DNA of 64,000 bases from Myxococcales bacterium. Lineage in GTDB: Bacteria; Myxococcota_A; UBA9160; UBA4427. A program made the translations under genes and the position numbers. Shown here piece by piece: positions 21,202 to 30,393 of this stretch. Under the pieces are notes generated by a model that did not search any database, was not told where the DNA came from, and saw only the letters and a list, made by a program, of their open reading frames with translations. The first letter of the stretch is position 1, and each line of letters begins with the position of its first letter. Where the stretch lies: the NCBI GenBank assembly GCA_022563535.1, contig JADFNE010000001.1, positions 23,964 through 87,963 on the forward strand, read 5' to 3'.

Positions 21202-24018
21202 ATGGACGATCAATACCACGCTAGTCAGCGAGAAGAGAGCCGCCTGAAACAGGCTGCGTTCATGACGCTGTTCGGCCTGATGGGTGGCCATGCGCTGCTC
21301 GAGACCGCCCGAGACGCCCTGTTTCTCACGAATGTTTCCGTCGAGCGGTTGCCCTGGGTCTACCTGTTGATTGCCGTGTCCGCGGTGTTCGTCGCGCGAT
21401 TGCAAATGAGATCGCAGCAAGTCGCAGATCACCGTCAGCAGTTGATTGTCCTTCAGGGAACGGCCGCGGTCATTACTCTCGGGTTCTGGTTTTTGCTGCC
21501 AAGCGCTGACGCGTGGCTCTACTACGCGCTCTATGTCTGGTCGGGATTGATCGGCAGCATTCTGGTCGTAACGTTCTGGTTGGTGCTCGGGGAGCTGTTT
21601 ACGATCACTCAGGGCAAGCGGATTTACGCCTCGATTGGTACGGGGGGAGCTGCGGGGGCGATTGCGGGTTTCGGTCTCGCCGCGGCGTTTACATCGCGCC
21701 TCCCGGCCGAGTTTCTGCTTCCGGCGAGCGCGCTCCTGTTCGCATCGAGTGCGCTTGGTCCCTTGGCGTCGCTCCGCCGACCGATGGAGGATCTGGCGGA
21801 TGAAATCGTGGCATCCCCCGGCCCCGAGATCGAGCAGGGTGGTACCGGCTTGCTCTCGAGTCTGACTGACATCGTCGGTCACCCGTATGCGCGTCGAGTT
21901 GCACTGCTCGTGGTTCTGTCGGCGATCACGCTCACCTTGGGCGACTACCTGTTCAAGAGCGTCCTCACCGAGGCTGTGTCCGCGGACAAGCTTGCGGCCT
22001 GGTTTGCGAGGATCTACCTCGTGCTCAACCTGGGCTCGCTGCTGGTGTTGATGTTTGGTGTTACCCGAATCATTCGTCGCGTGAGCGTTCATCGAGCCAT
22101 GGCGATCTTGCCCGGGCTCGTTTGTCTGGCGGCAGTGGGGATCTTGCTGGGCGGTGCGCTGCTCCCAGTCTTGTTTCTCAAGTTTGCGGACGGAACCCTG
22201 CGCTACTCGGTTCAGAAGACTGCGAGCGAACTGCTCTATCTCCCCATGCCGGCGGAGTTGCGCCGAAGAATCAAGGGAACCATCGACATCATGGGACTGC
22301 GGGGTGCGAGTGCCATCTCGTCTGGGCTGATCTTGCTCGCGCTCGCGATCGGTCCGCCCACCTCGCTGATTGCCGGTATGGTGCTGTTGCTCGGGGTTGC
22401 GTGGATCGCGCTCGCGCTGGAACTGCGCGGGGCATACCTCGATGTGTTTCGTGAGGCTCTGCGGGAAGGGACGATCGAGACCCGGATCGACGTCCCCGAA
22501 CTCGATCTGGCTTCGCTCGAAACCCTGATTCGCGCACTCAATCATTCCGACGATCGACACGTCCTGGCTGCCCTCGACCTGCTCGAAGCCAAGGGCAGGG
22601 TGGAGTTGATTCCGAGCCTGATTCTCTACCACCCGTCGTCGGAGGTCGTGGCCCGGGCCCTCGATCTGTTCGCGAGTTCGGGTCGGCGAGACTTCATCAT
22701 GCTCGCCGACCGATTGCTGGCGAGTGAAGACGCCGAGATTCGCGCAGCGATGGTGCGCGCCATGTGGGCCGCGGAGCCCGACCGTGAAAAGCTCGAAGCA
22801 CTCATGGACAACGAATGCCTGTGCGTCCGAACCAGCGCCGCAATCGGTTTGTTGGTGAACGACTGGATCGAGCCCGAGGTTGTACGTGAGCTCATTGAAG
22901 CATCAATCCAGTATCCCGATCCAGCGGCCCGGCTGGCCCTCGCCAACGCGATCAAGCTGCGTCACATCCCTGAGTTCCGCGAACCCGTTCATCTGCTGGC
23001 GCGGGACCCCGATCGAGCAGTTCGCCGAGAAGCGCTGCGGGCCATTAGCGCAAGTGGAGACGAGAGCTATACACCATTGCTCGTTCAACTCCTCGACGAT
23101 CGCGATATCCGAGAAGATGTACGTGAAGCACTGGGCGACCGAGGTGATGCTGCCCTCGAAGAGCTGTGGCGAGCACTCACAAGCGAAGATTCTTCGCCAG
23201 CATTGCTCCGACACATTCCCCGATCAATCTCCAGATTCCAAAACGTTCGCGCTGCAGAAATATTGCTCGGAGAACTGGTTGCCGAACACGGCCCCGATGG
23301 CGAACCGAAAGATCGGCATTCGGGAATGGTTCGCTACAAAATTTTACGCGGCCTCGTGCCATTGCTCCAGGGCTCGATGACAGACCAGGTCGACAAGAGC
23401 CCCCTCCACACCTCTGTTGCGCGCACAATCAGGCGGGTCATTCAGATGCTCCACTGGCAAATCTGGCTCGAAGACGGAAGAGCCCGGGACGAAGCGCGCC
23501 AGACCTGTGGCAGTTACCTGTTGCTTCAGTTGCTCGAAGACAAAGAGCGACTGGCGATGCAGCGGATCTTCAGGATGCTTTATCTGATTCAGCCGGAAGA
23601 GAATTTTATCCACATCTGGTCGGGACTGCAGAGCATGAGCCGCCGGGATCGCGCGAGCAGCCTGGAGCTTCTCGAGAACGTGCTCGGGGCGGAGCAACGT
23701 CGCGTGGTCGTGGCCTTGGTCGAATCGGGGCCCAAGCGCGAACGTCTGAGGCGAACCGGCAACCGATTGTCCGAAGCCCCGCTCGAGTATTCCGAACTCC
23801 TCTCCCAGATAGGGCGCGACGACAGCCGCACACTCCATGGGCTGGCGATGTATCACGCTGATGAGATGGGGTTGGATATTGATTTCGGGCAAATTGTCTT
23901 CGAACCTCAGGTGGAAGGTTCTCGCATGTCCGTTCGCGAGCAAGCGTTGGCGCTGATCGAGCGACTTCCGGACGGGCCGGCCTTCCCACTGGGCGCCGCG
24001 GTGGCTGCTGATGTCTGA
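21202..24018 (+). CDS. ATP/ADP-translocase-like (NTT/TLC) carrier with C-terminal HEAT repeats
   Basis: A 938-aa protein. Residues about 15-410 carry about 12 hydrophobic spans with NTT/MFS-like features (FADGTLRYSVQKTASELLYLPMP, then RRRIKGTIDIMGLRG), as in nucleotide-translocase-like proteins. The remaining roughly 500 residues are soluble and alpha-helical, with HEAT-type repeats (for example AALDLLEAKGRVELIPSLI, VRREALRAISASGDESYTPLLVQLL). The substrate is not proven; exchange of ATP, ADP or other NTPs is the family role. The stop overlaps the start of the cNMP-binding gene by 8 bp, which implies tight coupling. A second NTT-like gene follows. Related fused arrangements of NTT, HEAT and cNMP domains occur in free-living bacteria (from memory). 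Confidence 0.82.
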   Translation: MDDQYHASQREESRLKQAAFMTLFGLMGGHALLETARDALFLTNVSVERLPWVYLLIAVSAVFVARLQMRSQQVADHRQQLIVLQGTAAVITLGFWFLLPSADAWLYYALYVWSGLIGSILVVTFWLVLGELFTITQGKRIYASIGTGGAAGAIAGFGLAAAFTSRLPAEFLLPASALLFASSALGPLASLRRPMEDLADEIVASPGPEIEQGGTGLLSSLTDIVGHPYARRVALLVVLSAITLTLGDYLFKSVLTEAVSADKLAAWFARIYLVLNLGSLLVLMFGVTRIIRRVSVHRAMAILPGLVCLAAVGILLGGALLPVLFLKFADGTLRYSVQKTASELLYLPMPAELRRRIKGTIDIMGLRGASAISSGLILLALAIGPPTSLIAGMVLLLGVAWIALALELRGAYLDVFREALREGTIETRIDVPELDLASLETLIRALNHSDDRHVLAALDLLEAKGRVELIPSLILYHPSSEVVARALDLFASSGRRDFIMLADRLLASEDAEIRAAMVRAMWAAEPDREKLEALMDNECLCVRTSAAIGLLVNDWIEPEVVRELIEASIQYPDPAARLALANAIKLRHIPEFREPVHLLARDPDRAVRREALRAISASGDESYTPLLVQLLDDRDIREDVREALGDRGDAALEELWRALTSEDSSPALLRHIPRSISRFQNVRAAEILLGELVAEHGPDGEPKDRHSGMVRYKILRGLVPLLQGSMTDQVDKSPLHTSVARTIRRVIQMLHWQIWLEDGRARDEARQTCGSYLLLQLLEDKERLAMQRIFRMLYLIQPEENFIHIWSGLQSMSRRDRASSLELLENVLGAEQRRVVVALVESGPKRERLRRTGNRLSEAPLEYSELLSQIGRDDSRTLHGLAMYHADEMGLDIDFGQIVFEPQVEGSRMSVREQALALIERLPDGPAFPLGAAVAADV

Positions 24019-24940
24019 CTTGCCCCTGGTTTCTCCCCTCGATCGAGTGTTGTTTCTCCGCACCCAGCCACATTTTGCGCGGCTCGAACCCGCGGCCCTC
24101 GTGATCATCGCGAACCACACCGTGGAGCGAAGCTTTCGCAAGGGGGACGTCATATTCGAAGAGTCTAAGCCGCGACGATTTTTCCACTTTCTGGTTGAAG
24201 GGACGGTGCGCACGACCCTGGACGGGGAGACGCTGTTCGATGTCTCGGCTCCGGGCGGGGTAGGGTTGGCCCACGTATTTGCCAGAAGTGACCAGCCGAG
24301 TGGCGCGGTTGCGCTTACGGATGTCGTTTCTCTTCAAATCGAAGTCGAAGTCTTCATGCAAATCATGGAGGACTGCTTTCCAATCGTCTTTGAATTTGGA
24401 CAGATACTCGCCAAGATGATCGGGAATGCGGAAGAGACGCTCAGCATTGCTCCCGGCGCCGATGAGTGCGTCGCTTGTCGGGTTCCCGCGTCCGATGAGA
24501 CTCTCGACCTGGTGCAGCGGCTGACACGCACACGGAGAGCGTCGCTATTCAGCAAGGCCAGCCTGACCATGCTGACCGAACTGCTGCGCGGAACTCCCGA
24601 ACACTACGTAGAGCAAGATGAGTGGCTGTTTCGACCGGGACAGCTCCCCAAGTCACTTTTCGTGATCTTCGAAGGAACCGTGCGGATCGAAGATCAGCTG
24701 GGCAAACGGGTCGCATTTGCAGGGCCCGGCGAAGTGGTCTCCCTGGCAGACTGCTGCCGGAATGAACCGCACAGTTTTGGCGCGATTACCGACTCGCCAG
24801 TCCAACTTTTACGCATAGACAAGTCGCACTACATCGACGTGCTCGAGGACCATTTCGAGCACGCGCTCGATTTGTTGGCCGAGCTGGCGCAGAGGTATCT
24901 CGAACTCAGCGTACGGATCCACCAAAGTCCTGTTTCGTGA
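24011..24940 (+). CDS. Protein with two cyclic-nucleotide-binding (CAP-ED) domains
   Basis: 309 aa. Two cupin-like cNMP-binding domains are visible, at about 15-140 (FARLEPAALVIIANHTVERSFRKGDVIFEE, FHFLVEGTVR) and about 185-305 (LFRPGQLPKSLFVIFEGTVRIED, FAGPGEVVSLADCC). No DNA-binding helix-turn-helix or catalytic domain follows, so it is unlikely to be a CRP-type regulator. Its start lies within the stop region of the NTT-HEAT gene (ATGTCTGA). It probably regulates that carrier in trans (inference). Whether it binds a cyclic nucleotide is open: the second domain lacks an obvious full phosphate-binding cassette. Confidence 0.82.
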   Translation: MSDLPLVSPLDRVLFLRTQPHFARLEPAALVIIANHTVERSFRKGDVIFEESKPRRFFHFLVEGTVRTTLDGETLFDVSAPGGVGLAHVFARSDQPSGAVALTDVVSLQIEVEVFMQIMEDCFPIVFEFGQILAKMIGNAEETLSIAPGADECVACRVPASDETLDLVQRLTRTRRASLFSKASLTMLTELLRGTPEHYVEQDEWLFRPGQLPKSLFVIFEGTVRIEDQLGKRVAFAGPGEVVSLADCCRNEPHSFGAITDSPVQLLRIDKSHYIDVLEDHFEHALDLLAELAQRYLELSVRIHQSPVS

Positions 24941-25027: not shown

Positions 25028-26467
25028 ATGGTGTGGCGGAATCAAGTTTCACGTAAATCGCTGCGGCAATTATTTTCTGGGACAAATCAATTGGCAAAGT
25101 CCGGGGTTTTGCGGTCTCTGTTCGATGTGCGACCGGATGAACGGCGCATCGCTGCGTTGATGTCCAGCTTCTTCTTTCTGGTGATTACTTCCTTCTGGAT
25201 CTTGAAGCCGCTAAAGAAGATGCTCTTCATCGGCTACTACGCCGAGCCGGGTTTCGACCTCTTCGGTTCTCACTTTGTGGCTTCAGAAGCGGAGCAGCTG
25301 GCAAAGGTGCTGAACATGTTCGTCGCGGCCGTGGCGGCGGCCGTCTTTTCGATTTTGTCTCGCCGCTTGCGACGCGAGCGGCTCACCTACGTGTTCGCGA
25401 TCTTCTTCATCGTCGCGTACGGGATCTTCGCGATGGGTCTGAGAACGCTCACCGGTCCTGGGGTCTGGAGCTTCTATCTATTCGGCGATCTGTTCAGCAC
25501 GCTGATGGTCGCGACGTTTTTCTCTTTTCTGAACGACAGCGTTTCTTCGGGGGCAGCCAAACGTCTCTACGGGGTGATCGGATTTGGTGGCGTTGCCGGT
25601 GGGGCATTCGGCTCGAGCGTGGTCGCACTGTGGATTAGTTCGCTTTCGCTCGCAGGCTGGCTCGTCGTCACAGCGGCGATTGGTGGCGCGATCCTGCTGG
25701 TCGCCCGGGCGGCGGCCAATTCAATACCCGACGACGGATCGGCAAGCAACGCCCCGAGCAAGGCTAAAGCAGCGCCTGCCTCAGACGTCTCGGCCTCTGC
25801 ATCTGCGGGCAATGCGGCTCTCGCGGGAGCGCGACTCGTCTTCGGTTCGAGTTACCTGCTCTCGATCGTCGCGATGGTGGCTTTCTACGAAGTGGTGTCC
25901 ACGGTGGTCGACTTCCAGTTCACCAGGGCGATCATTTCGTTCTCTGCGGACGATGCCGCGCGCAATCAGAATTTCGCCACGGTCTATGCCGCGACCAACT
26001 GGCTTTCGATGTTCGTGCAACTTTTCTTGACGAGCTTCGTCATGCGTCGCTTCGGGCTCGCCACGGCACTGATGGTCCTGCCGTGCACGATTGCACTCGC
26101 GTCACTGGGTTTCCTTTTAGTTCCGACGCTTGTGATGGGAGGTCTGCTCAGTGTCGCCGACAACGGTTTCAGCTACTCGATCAACCAGTCGTCGAAGGAA
26201 GCTCTCTATGTACCGACTACAGTCGAAGAAAAGTACCAGGCGAAGGCTTTCATCGATATGTTCGTTCAGCGCTTCGCAAAGGCGTGCGGTGTGGGCTTGA
26301 ATCTCGTGGTGGCGAACCTGGTGCACGGGGTGCCAGGGATACGGGCGCTTACCTTGTTAGTACTTCCGGTTGTCGGGCTCTGGGCCTTCTTTGCACTCAG
26401 AGCGGGCAGAGGCTTCAACGAACTCGAGAAGAAAAGGCGTCAAATCCAGAAGATTAAGGTCGGCTGA
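25028..26467 (+). CDS. Second ATP/ADP-translocase-like (NTT/TLC, MFS-fold) carrier
   Basis: A 479-aa membrane protein with about 12 hydrophobic segments from residue 45 onwards (FFFLVITSFWILKPLKKMLFIGYY is a typical NTT start). It contains GVIGFGGVAGGAFGSSVVALW and, late in the protein, DNGFSYSINQSSKEALYVPTTVEEKYQAKAFID, which matches the pattern of the first carrier and of TLC family members. The start has no clear RBS; a start nearer residue 45 is possible but would remove a basic N-terminus. It is followed after 37 bp by the kinase-like/Omp85 gene. Nucleotide exchange is the family function; the direction and membrane partner are unknown. Confidence 0.82.
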   Translation: MVWRNQVSRKSLRQLFSGTNQLAKSGVLRSLFDVRPDERRIAALMSSFFFLVITSFWILKPLKKMLFIGYYAEPGFDLFGSHFVASEAEQLAKVLNMFVAAVAAAVFSILSRRLRRERLTYVFAIFFIVAYGIFAMGLRTLTGPGVWSFYLFGDLFSTLMVATFFSFLNDSVSSGAAKRLYGVIGFGGVAGGAFGSSVVALWISSLSLAGWLVVTAAIGGAILLVARAAANSIPDDGSASNAPSKAKAAPASDVSASASAGNAALAGARLVFGSSYLLSIVAMVAFYEVVSTVVDFQFTRAIISFSADDAARNQNFATVYAATNWLSMFVQLFLTSFVMRRFGLATALMVLPCTIALASLGFLLVPTLVMGGLLSVADNGFSYSINQSSKEALYVPTTVEEKYQAKAFIDMFVQRFAKACGVGLNLVVANLVHGVPGIRALTLLVLPVVGLWAFFALRAGRGFNELEKKRRQIQKIKVG

Positions 26468-26504: not shown

Positions 26505-29168
26505 ATGTTTCCTCTGCGCGTCGCTCGAGGCGCTGTTTCCGTTTGCATCGTTGCGTTTGTATCCCTCGTTGCGAACGCAGCAGCGGACATTGACCCTGCG
26601 GAACGCGTGAGCGTTGCGGCGAGCGAACGCTACGAAGCGGGCCGTGTCTACCGCTTTGCCATGGGCGGGGGCTATCGCGATCTTTGGGAAGTCGAAGTTC
26701 CGTTGCCGCTCCTCGATCTGGCGAAAGAGGGCGGGGGTCTGGTTCCCACCCGTCGTTTCGGCGGTTTGCAGACATCCGTACTGGGTTTCAAGGGTGCCGA
26801 TGGTCGGATCTACAGTTTCCGCGGGACGGACAAGGATCCTTCTGCGGTGCTTGACTCACTGCTCCACGACACTGTCATCCAGACCATCGTGCAGGACCAG
26901 ATGGCAGCGCAACATCCGGCGGGCCCGCCGGTGGCCGGTGTGTTGACGGAAGCGGCCGGCGTTCTCACCATTCGCGAGCGCATGGTGGTGATGCCCGACG
27001 ATCCGAGGCTCGGAAAGTTTCGCAAAGAGTTTGCGGGCATGGTGGGGACGTTCTTCGAGTATCCCATGCCCGGATCCGGAGGCCGCGAGGGTTTCCACGG
27101 CGCCACCGAGATCATCGATCACGACGAACTCTACACCCGACTTTCGCGGGACAACAAAGACGAAGTGGACGTAGAGGCGTTCTTGCGGGCACGACTGCTG
27201 GACATTTTTCTCGGAGACTTCGATCGACATCGCAAGCAGTGGCGCTGGGCAAAACTTCCCGGAAACCCGCGCTGGCAGCCGATCCCGGAAGATCGGGACA
27301 TGGCCTTCGTGCGCTACGACGGTGTGGGCCCGAGGCTCGCAAAAATCTACATTCCGATCCTTCAGCGCTATACGGCGGAGTATCCGTTCATCAAGGGGTT
27401 GACCCTGCACGGTTGGGAGCAGGATCGCTGGTTGTTGCCGCGGTTGTCCTGGCAGGACTGGGAGCCGATCATTGCCGACATCGGGGCGCGCATCACCGAC
27501 GAGACGATCGATCGGGCGATCGCAAATCTGCCGCCCGAATATGCCGCCATCGATGGAGCTCGACTGCGCAGCGATATCGTGGGCCGTCGCGACAACCTCC
27601 CCGAGGTCGCGAGACGTTTCTACGAACATCTGGCCGGAAAGGTCGACATCCAGACATCGGACGCGGCTGATCATGTGAGCGTGCAGCGACGTAAAGATGG
27701 ACGCATGCTGGTAGAAATTCGCGAGCAAACGGAAGGCGGCGCCCTCGGACGGGTTCACTTTCGGCGGGAGTTCATACCGGCCGAGACGAACGATGTGCGT
27801 CTCTATCTACGCGGCGGCGACGATACCGTTCGAATTACCGGGGGCACGGGTTCGATCCGCTTCCGGGTGATTGCAGGGGACGGCAAAAAGCGAGTCGACG
27901 ACAGCGAGGGGGGTAGGACGCGAGTCTATGCCTCCGATGGCCGTTTGGATGGCCATGCCGATGGCAACATCGAGGTTGCAGCCGGAGGTGGTACAAAGGT
28001 CATCCGCGACGACTATGTATTGCCACCGTCCGATTCCGGATTCGTGGACGTGGAGAACGTGCCCCCCCGCGACTGGGGGACCGACACGATTCCGCTGCCC
28101 CAGTTGGGCTACGAAAAAGACGTCGGCTTCTTCCTCGGCATGGCAGCGGCCCACACCCGCTATGGCTTCCGAAAGCACCCTTGGAGCAGCAAGCACAGCT
28201 TGAGCGCGGGCTATGCGACCGAGGCCGCGAAGGCCCGGGTTCGTTACCGCGGAAGGTTTCGCCCCGAAAATTCGCAGCTACTGGCGGAGCTCGACCTACA
28301 ATACTCGGGAATCGAAGTGGTGCGCTTCTACGGCTTCGGGAACAAGACCAGCGACAAGGGCGAAGACAAGTCCTTTCGCGTTCGCAACGAGCAACTCCGC
28401 GTGTTCCCGAGCATTAACGTTCCGATGTTCGATGACAAGCTCAAACTCTCAACGGGTCCGGTCCTGCAGTATTCGAACACCTCGAGTGGAGATCGTAAGA
28501 TCGACGAACTCGCGCCCTACGGAGACGGTCACTTCGGTCTGGTAGGGGTCAGGGCCAATCTGCAGTACGACACGCGCAAATCGATCGCGACCGAGCATGA
28601 AAAGTTGGAGATGCCCTTTCGGGACAACCCGGCGGCGGGCTATCCCACATCGGGTTTCTTCGTGGATGTGGGCGGGAGCTTCAGCCCGCCGGTCTGGGAC
28701 GTGGAAAAAAGCTATGGGACGATCCACGGGTCGATCTCGGGATACCTGAGTGTGGGTAAAGAGGCGAAGGCCACTCTCGGTGTTCGCTTGGGCGGCCAGG
28801 AAACGTGGGGGCGACTTCCGTATTTCGATTACGCCTATATCGGCGGAGGCCGTTTCTTCAGCGGCACCGCGACCAATCGCGGTTATCGATCGCGGCGATT
28901 CGCCGGCAACTCCTCGCTCTATATGAATACCGATTTGCGGGTCGTTCTCGGCCGGGTGAAGCTGATCGTTCCCGGAGACGTTGGGGTCCACGGTTACTTC
29001 GATGTCGGGCGGGTCTTCCTCGATGGCGAGTCTTCCGATAAATGGCACACGAGCGGTGGTGCTGGGGTCTGGTTCTCACCGCTCGTACGGACGAACACAA
29101 TCAGCCTCTCGCTGGCCAACAGCAACGAAGAGACGCTCATTTACATGCGCGTCGGGTTTCACTACTAA
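26505..29168 (+). CDS. Exported fusion of a kinase-like domain and an Omp85-type outer-membrane barrel
   Basis: 887 aa from ATG 26505 (AAAGGA six nt upstream); a longer frame from 26370 lies inside the previous gene. The signal peptide is residues 1-27. Residues about 40-400 contain FRGTDKDPS (candidate catalytic Lys110), Glu185 in TFFEYP, GDFDRHRKQWRW (237-248) and PEDRDMAF (261-268). These resemble the catalytic Asp/Gln loop and DFG-equivalent Asp of HipA-, CotH- and FAM20-like kinases. A beta-rich linker follows. Residues about 545-887 form a BamA/TamA-type barrel (GYRSRRFAGN L6-like loop, terminal MRVGFHY). From memory, a similar region occurs in large barrel proteins of Bacteroidetes. 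Kinase activity is an inference. The gene is adjacent to two nucleotide-translocase-like carriers. Confidence 0.75.
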   Translation: MFPLRVARGAVSVCIVAFVSLVANAAADIDPAERVSVAASERYEAGRVYRFAMGGGYRDLWEVEVPLPLLDLAKEGGGLVPTRRFGGLQTSVLGFKGADGRIYSFRGTDKDPSAVLDSLLHDTVIQTIVQDQMAAQHPAGPPVAGVLTEAAGVLTIRERMVVMPDDPRLGKFRKEFAGMVGTFFEYPMPGSGGREGFHGATEIIDHDELYTRLSRDNKDEVDVEAFLRARLLDIFLGDFDRHRKQWRWAKLPGNPRWQPIPEDRDMAFVRYDGVGPRLAKIYIPILQRYTAEYPFIKGLTLHGWEQDRWLLPRLSWQDWEPIIADIGARITDETIDRAIANLPPEYAAIDGARLRSDIVGRRDNLPEVARRFYEHLAGKVDIQTSDAADHVSVQRRKDGRMLVEIREQTEGGALGRVHFRREFIPAETNDVRLYLRGGDDTVRITGGTGSIRFRVIAGDGKKRVDDSEGGRTRVYASDGRLDGHADGNIEVAAGGGTKVIRDDYVLPPSDSGFVDVENVPPRDWGTDTIPLPQLGYEKDVGFFLGMAAAHTRYGFRKHPWSSKHSLSAGYATEAAKARVRYRGRFRPENSQLLAELDLQYSGIEVVRFYGFGNKTSDKGEDKSFRVRNEQLRVFPSINVPMFDDKLKLSTGPVLQYSNTSSGDRKIDELAPYGDGHFGLVGVRANLQYDTRKSIATEHEKLEMPFRDNPAAGYPTSGFFVDVGGSFSPPVWDVEKSYGTIHGSISGYLSVGKEAKATLGVRLGGQETWGRLPYFDYAYIGGGRFFSGTATNRGYRSRRFAGNSSLYMNTDLRVVLGRVKLIVPGDVGVHGYFDVGRVFLDGESSDKWHTSGGAGVWFSPLVRTNTISLSLANSNEETLIYMRVGFHY

Positions 29169-29199: not shown

Positions 29200-30393
29200 A
29201 TGTCTGTCTCCCTAGACAAGTGTTTTTCCCCGGGAACTCTTGCGGGTTTGCAACTCTCGAATCGTGTCATCAAGGCGGCGACGTTCGAGGGGATGTGCCC
29301 GGGTGGTGTTCCGAGCGAGCGCCTGTTCGCTCATCATCGCGGTGTGGCGGAGGGTGGGGTGGCGATGACGACCCTTGCCTACTGCGCCGTGGAACCCGAT
29401 GGCCGGGTCAAGCGCGAAATGATGTACATGCACGAAGGCATCCGACCGCAGCTCGAACGTCTGGCGCGGGAAGTACACGAAGCGGGTTCGCTGCTGTCGG
29501 GCCAAATGGGTCATTGCGGCAATTTTTCGCAAAACGCGGACTTTCAGGGCAAGCGTCCTCTGGGTCCTTCTCCCATGCTGAATATGGGTGGCCTTCCCTT
29601 CGGCATCCCGTTCGCCGGAGCGATGCGTCACAGTGACATCGACCGGCTTGTCGGTCTGTTTCGCGAAGCGGCGCTGTTCATGAAATCCGTGGGCTTTGAC
29701 GCGGTGGAAATTCACTTTGGTCACGGTTATGGCCTGAGTCAGTTCATCAGCCCCAAGACGAACAAACGCAGCGACGAATACGGCGGCAGTCTGATCAATC
29801 GGATGCGCCTGCCCCTGCGCGTGCTCGAGACCGTGCGCGAAGCCGTGGGAGACGCGTTTCCGATCCTCGGAAAAATGGGTCTGACCGACGGTGTGAAGGG
29901 TGGTTTGAAGGAAGATGAGGCCATCGAAGTCGCTGCACTTCTCGACGAAGCGGGGATTGACGCCCTGATCCCGAGCGGGGGTACGAGCAGCATGAATCCC
30001 ATGCTCTTGTTTCGCGGGGACAGTTTAAAAGATGGTCTGCTCGAGCAAGAGACGAACCCGTTCATGCGATTGGGCCTCAAGTTGGTGGGTTCGAAACTGT
30101 TCAAGGAATATCCGTACAGAGAACTCTACTTCCTGGAGGGCGCAAAGCGCGTTCGCGATCGGATCAAGCGCGCAAAGGTCGTCTACGTCGGCGGCGTGAG
30201 CACCCTCGAGAGCATCGAGATCGCCATGCAAGAATTTGAATTCATTCAGATGGGCCGCTCGCTCTGGAAAGACCCCGCATTTGTGAACCACGCCAAGGCC
30301 AACCCCTACTACGTCAATCACTGCAATCATTGCAATCGCTGTGCGACCCTGATTGGTCATCCGGACGGCGTCCGCTGCGTACTGAACGATTGA
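29200..30393 (+). CDS. NADH:flavin oxidoreductase, Old Yellow Enzyme / dienoyl-CoA-reductase-like
   Basis: 397 aa from ATG 29200 (AAAGG upstream). The FMN-binding TIM barrel motifs are SNRVIKAATFEGM, GQMGHCGNF, IHFGHGYGLSQFISPKTNKRSDEYGGS and VYVGGVSTLESIE. The C-terminus has a short Cys cluster (NHCNHCNRC ... GVRC), reminiscent of the iron-sulphur motif of 2,4-dienoyl-CoA reductases. The extra C-terminal FAD/NAD domain of FadH is missing, so this is a short single-domain member. It probably reduces an alpha,beta-unsaturated carbonyl or enoyl compound with NAD(P)H; the substrate is unknown. A hairpin follows the stop. Confidence 0.85.
   Translation: MSVSLDKCFSPGTLAGLQLSNRVIKAATFEGMCPGGVPSERLFAHHRGVAEGGVAMTTLAYCAVEPDGRVKREMMYMHEGIRPQLERLAREVHEAGSLLSGQMGHCGNFSQNADFQGKRPLGPSPMLNMGGLPFGIPFAGAMRHSDIDRLVGLFREAALFMKSVGFDAVEIHFGHGYGLSQFISPKTNKRSDEYGGSLINRMRLPLRVLETVREAVGDAFPILGKMGLTDGVKGGLKEDEAIEVAALLDEAGIDALIPSGGTSSMNPMLLFRGDSLKDGLLEQETNPFMRLGLKLVGSKLFKEYPYRELYFLEGAKRVRDRIKRAKVVYVGGVSTLESIEIAMQEFEFIQMGRSLWKDPAFVNHAKANPYYVNHCNHCNRCATLIGHPDGVRCVLND

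Follow-up and report, generated by a model that had tools for sequence, protein, structure and literature searches.

How could a kinase-like active site anchored at the outer membrane carry out phosphorylation without a standing ATP pool? The question is raised by one gene in the window, the whole stretch of 64,000 nucleotides of myxococcal DNA analyzed here, which a preliminary description had proposed to encode a kinase-like domain placed behind a signal peptide and fused to an outer membrane barrel. The open reading frame was found at the claimed position, encodes 887 amino acids without internal stop, and has full-length homologues. The layout of the protein, which we call the kinase-barrel protein, is as follows.

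26505 to 29168, forward strand: kinase-barrel gene, 887 residues (ATG at 26505, stop at 29166-29168)
26505 to 26585, forward strand: putative signal peptide covering residues 1 to about 27 (on inspection, a hydrophobic core and ANAAAD; helix 9-23 in the model)
26694 to 27638, forward strand: kinase-like domain, residues about 64 to 378 (AlphaFold2, Foldseek and VIA results below)
27639 to 28019, forward strand: all-beta middle domain, residues about 379 to 505 (DSSP of the full-length model)
28077 to 29165, forward strand: 16-stranded Omp85 barrel, residues about 525 to 887, with the conserved RG motif NRGYRSRRF (NCBIfam, model, Foldseek and alignment)

Judged by its sequence, the N terminus, MFPLRVARGAVSVCIVAFVSLVANAAAD, resembles a Sec signal peptide, in line with the earlier claim. 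In the N-terminal half, no Pfam family covers the kinase-like domain. Searches of PHROGs, phage records and a viral structure library gave zero relatives of the protein, and it is undescribed in the open-licence papers searched.

Residues 1 to 390 were modeled with AlphaFold2 on the basis of 15 homologues, giving a model of moderate confidence (pLDDT 73.9, pTM 0.73) in which residues 265 to 302 are poorly modeled or disordered. The model comprises a strand-rich lobe, in which K110 ends a strand, followed by a helical lobe, in which the GDFDRH loop comes after a long helix. Foldseek returned five matches below 1e-3, all of them CtkA (best E = 2e-5), with modest TM-scores (0.36 to 0.49), followed by HipA, CotH and FAM20C (0.012 for FAM20C). 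In VIA alignments, CotH gave a Z-score of 13.3, PI4KII 12.7 and CtkA 11.7, ahead of HipA and actin-fragmin kinase (about 9.5) and of the FAM20 pair (8.8 to 8.9, the latter for FAM20A). The structural comparison with FAM20C, CotH and HipA that had been suggested for this protein thus returned a kinase-like fold.

Evidence independent of the structure model came from profile-profile alignment, in which the domain scored 42.4 against CotH and 41.3 against HipA, with the catalytic loops in register; control profiles, reversed or column-shuffled, did not exceed 20 (hhalign). The match to the Pfam CotH family (PF08757) spans exactly residues 218 to 273 and is subthreshold (E = 0.06 to 0.18; 11.8 to 13.3 bits versus a cut-off of 23.8), and the likeness to HipA (PF07804) is seen by profile-profile alignment only, with no Pfam HipA_C match. 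A direct sequence search of the PDB returned nothing, and a PDB profile search reached the CtkA loop LLGNFDRHNGNW, on the catalytic loop, at E = 0.71, which ranks below two chance-level matches to ribosomal proteins elsewhere in the domain.

CotH (PDB 5JDA), an extracytoplasmic protein of atypical kinase fold, shares the catalytic loop and an IP-x-D metal aspartate with the kinase-barrel domain, but the two are only about 13% identical, CotH has Asn where the loop here has Gln, it acts in spore coats, and the Omp85 fusion is a feature of the kinase-barrel protein only. The Helicobacter pylori kinase CtkA (PDB 3AKJ-3AKL) shares the LLGxFDRH loop, and HipA aligns through its GG-Q motif and D-x-H, whereas for neither does sequence alone give a significant E-value; to our knowledge, both are without a fused outer membrane barrel. 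FAM20C and FAM20A are likewise structurally similar kinase-fold proteins that lie outside the cytosol, but they are eukaryotic, lack a barrel and match less well than CotH and CtkA do. Fold and residues place the domain in the kinase-like superfamily, in the branch of CotH, HipA, CtkA and FAM20, outside the Pfam CotH and HipA families.

Three motifs supply the candidate active-site residues.

26817 to 26840, forward strand: FRGTDKDP (residues 105-112), where strand 102-110 ends; its K110 is the candidate ATP-binding lysine
27213 to 27242, forward strand: catalytic loop GDFDRHRKQW, residues 237-246; D240 is the candidate catalytic aspartate (profile alignment, conservation)
27285 to 27308, forward strand: PEDRDMAF, residues 261-268; D263 is the candidate DFG-type metal aspartate, D265 a second aspartate (profile alignment, conservation)

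We counted conservation over 68 nonidentical, divergent homologous domains from four phyla. D238, D263 and R264 are kept in all 68 domains, K110, D131 and D265 in 67, Q245 in 66, and D240 and H242 in 65. Lys110 (within TDKDP, residues 108-112), Asp240 and Asp265, the three residues on whose conservation the kinase reading had been staked, are therefore all conserved, and near-invariance in domains this diverse indicates that the motifs are not chance resemblances. In the profile alignments, the GDFDRHRKQW loop falls on those of CotH and HipA as had been proposed, with D240 on their catalytic aspartate and Q245 on their asparagine. The catalytic-loop asparagine is usually, although not universally, the second metal ligand in kinases; here, position 245 is Gln in 66 domains and Asn in the other 2. 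PEDRDMAF also held up as a candidate metal-binding motif. D265, the aspartate originally assigned to the DFG-type metal site within it, was replaced by the likelier D263, the first aspartate of EDRD, which matches the metal aspartate of CotH in the profile alignment. CotH mutants in D228 and D251 are reported to be catalytically inactive (PMC7821199), and these two residues would correspond to those aligned with the D240 and D263 motifs.

The C-terminal part is an Omp85-type barrel, as previously described. NCBIfam NF047779 matched with E = 1.6e-22, below the family's own strict cut-off, with the best stretch at residues 713 to 885; the full-length model shows 16 long strands within residues 525 to 883, and Foldseek matched the barrel to Sam50, BamA and TamA (best E = 4e-9). 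By DSSP of the whole-chain model, no POTRA-like beta-alpha pattern is seen in the middle domain; POTRA-less Omp85 subfamilies exist (PMC4104836). The kinase-barrel protein belongs to the Omp85 superfamily, with an unusual architecture. PlpD, a patatin-Omp85 protein (type Vd), similarly has an enzyme domain ahead of a 16-stranded Omp85 barrel, but it is a lipase rather than a kinase and has a POTRA domain. Since Omp85 N-terminal domains, including the enzyme domain of PlpD, are periplasmic (PMC11116518), of the two placements first put forward, periplasmic or surface, the kinase-like domain more likely faces the periplasm. The Omp85 "Metallo" subfamily (Heinz and Lithgow 2014, PMC4104836) combines PF00149 with a barrel; the window protein is without PF00149, whereas a Persicobacter homologue (L027) has both, with the kinase domain inserted between them. 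The word "kinase" occurs 0 times in that 2014 survey.

Upstream of the kinase-barrel gene lie three genes, two of them encoding carriers of the NTT (TLC) type.

21202 to 24018, forward strand: NTT-HEAT, a TLC ATP/ADP-type carrier with HEAT repeats (PF03219, 6.3e-11; HEAT_2, 2.2e-13)
24011 to 24940, forward strand: protein with a cyclic-nucleotide-binding domain, overlapping the NTT-HEAT stop (PF00027, 2.4e-25)
25028 to 26467, forward strand: another NTT (TLC) carrier, with 37 bp between the end of its gene and the kinase-barrel ATG (PF03219, 8.9e-14; adjacency conserved)

All four genes are on the forward strand, separated by short gaps or overlaps, with the kinase-barrel gene last. The two NTTs are divergent carriers, scoring 51.6 and 42.2 bits against PF03219 (cut-off, 21). 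A third NTT is found in the source genome (4.6 Mb) on another contig (G000:C3:104668-105330). The flavin oxidoreductase gene downstream (29200-30393) is absent beside homologues at other loci and was set aside.

Homologues of the kinase-barrel protein occur in four groups, Myxococcota/Deltaproteobacteria, Acidobacteriota, Gemmatimonadota and Bacteroidota, and the gene is patchy, being present in 7 of 30 genomes of the window's family, 7 of 297 Acidobacteriota and 74 of 249 Gemmatimonadota (one locus, L013, could be included only in part because of frameshifts on its contig). In the Myxococcota clade (the window, L001-L005, L007 and L083), the kinase-barrel gene has this NTT arrangement or a related one beside it, with the NTT divergently oriented in L004 and present as contig-edge fragments in L003 and L005. 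In Acidobacteriota, an NTT lies downstream of the kinase-barrel gene in L011 and is divergent in L078, and the gemmatimonadal locus L189 has one on both sides, in the order NTT, phosphoesterase, kinase, NTT-HEAT. On the kinase tree, the adjacency occurs at four or more distinct positions. Within the window's family, 6 of 7 genomes with the kinase also have an NTT, versus 6 of 23 genomes without it (p = 0.009).

We know of no standing ATP pool in the periplasm, and the phosphate donor would therefore come from the products of adjacent genes, which in the window's clade are the NTT nucleotide carriers. Alternatively, the NTT neighbors could be incidental, separately useful genes held together in one clade by descent, the donor arriving otherwise. 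This reading touches the donor step only and is compatible with a kinase; we regard it as a possibility of some weight, albeit the less likely one. It is favored by the lack of a genome-wide link in Gemmatimonadota (NTT in 20 of 74 kinase-positive versus 68 of 174 kinase-negative genomes) and by the NTT-HEAT/cNBD operons, which are widely conserved across bacteria in general and whose function in free-living bacteria the 2017 survey calls unknown (PMC5381601). Against it, the adjacency arose at least four times with differing orders and orientations, and if two NTT genes among 4,000 are taken as a rough null, its occurrence at 3 or more of 49 non-Myxococcota loci has a chance probability of about 2e-5. 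Nevertheless, many loci have no NTT beside the kinase-barrel gene (e.g., L008, L010, L012, L072 and L073), which, together with the missing co-occurrence in Gemmatimonadota, means that supply by these carriers cannot be universal. Two of these loci, the acidobacterial L072 and L073, have similar upstream neighbors, including in both a predicted cation-exchanger-like gene; an upstream gene of L072 matches animal haem peroxidase (PF03098, 3.4e-160).

Around the gemmatimonadal homologues, neighbors at 40 loci were identified by unbiased clustering and then counted with profiles up to 6 kb away, with names taken from Pfam. A metallophosphoesterase, in most cases combining intact motifs with a lipobox-like N terminus, was found at 19 loci, DUF4956 at 20, and a CYTH-polyphosphate kinase (CYTH-PPK1) at 13, of which L174 showed the CYTH part only; the others, near or next to the kinase-barrel gene and often accompanied by DUF4956, are L172, L176-L179, L184, L187, L191-L193, L195 and L198. 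L184 also carries a tandem pair of kinase-barrel genes (L184:6425-11571). As a control, 20 CotH gene regions (218 kb) contained no NTT, phosphoesterase, CYTH or PPK1 and a single DUF4956 (L231). The CYTH-polyphosphate kinase neighbors possibly represent a polyphosphate donor route in Gemmatimonadota. No metallophosphoesterase was found beside the window gene. In two Bacteroidota homologues, from Persicobacter (L027, 3858-7502) and Hymenobacter (L026, 3771-7529), the phosphoesterase is instead the N-terminal domain of the same chain: L027 reads phosphoesterase (PF00149, 1.1e-11), kinase-like domain, barrel, with both enzymatic parts intact, while L026 shows joint decay of the phosphoesterase motifs and of D240 in the kinase-like domain.

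It is conceivable, but in our view unlikely, that the kinase fold and its nucleotide pocket serve another chemistry, either AMP transfer of the SelO type or nucleotide-gated control of the barrel. The Gln that replaces the usual Asn of the catalytic loop, the lack of any standing periplasmic ATP pool known to us, and a barrel of the Omp85 type, whose usual job is protein assembly, would all suit this explanation; however, a pure sensor would not need D240, which is kept nearly throughout, and the phosphoesterase partner suggests phosphate turnover.

D240 is lost in three of the four Bacteroidota copies (Ser in L025, Gly in L026, Asn in L028), which account for all its losses among the 68 domains, and some members may therefore be pseudokinases. 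One of them, a distant relative on a Parabacteroides distasonis plasmid (L028:4881-7340), retains D263 and is without K110, D240 and D265; it is probably a pseudokinase-barrel protein. These three copies, the decay of L026 and the assembly or translocation activity of the Omp85 proteins known before PlpD (PMC11116518, PMC4104836) would fit an assembly or translocation factor of the "Metallo" or "noNterm" type with an N-terminal pseudokinase as a mere binding module, which we nonetheless hold to be improbable for the family, given that the catalytic residues are near-invariant in the Myxococcota, Acidobacteriota and Gemmatimonadota copies and that the recurrent neighbors are phosphate and nucleotide genes.

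The claim of a kinase-like domain fused to an outer membrane barrel is thus borne out by fold, conserved residues and the Omp85 barrel. Taking these computational observations together with the recurrent neighbors, we favor as the probable reading an atypical kinase that is tethered to the outer membrane, faces the periplasm and has its donor supply encoded in the genome. The protein would be exported by Sec, after which its Omp85 barrel would insert into the outer membrane and hold the CotH/HipA/CtkA-fold domain in the periplasm. D240 would act as the catalytic base, while nucleotide and metal would be bound by K110 and D263 with Q245 and/or D265, and the domain would phosphorylate an envelope substrate, be it protein, lipid or sugar. 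In the window's clade, the donor would come from the neighboring NTT carriers, and in Gemmatimonadota it would probably come by a route related to polyphosphate (DUF4956, CYTH-PPK1). In lineages having one, the adjacent or fused periplasmic metallophosphoesterase would reverse or trim the phosphorylation. More tentatively, and with less than even confidence, these parts may amount to a dedicated extracytoplasmic phosphorylation system of some Gram-negative bacteria, in which nucleotide or polyphosphate export across the inner membrane feeds an outer membrane kinase that modifies the envelope, opposed by a phosphoesterase.

FAM20 kinases work in the Golgi, where they are fed by luminal ATP. If the proposed system is real, it would parallel that arrangement, and the NTT carriers of free-living bacteria would be ATP exporters. 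The window NTT-HEAT, cNBD and NTT genes fit the architectures described for such carriers in PMC5381601, in whose consulted passages a kinase partner is not mentioned; NTT, "Metallo" Omp85 and kinase are not joined in any paper of the open-licence literature searched. The recurrent pairing with NTTs makes the question of ATP supply testable and offers a role for these carriers in free-living bacteria. Our data further suggest that the "Metallo" class of Omp85 proteins includes members that are in fact phosphoesterase-kinase-barrel proteins.
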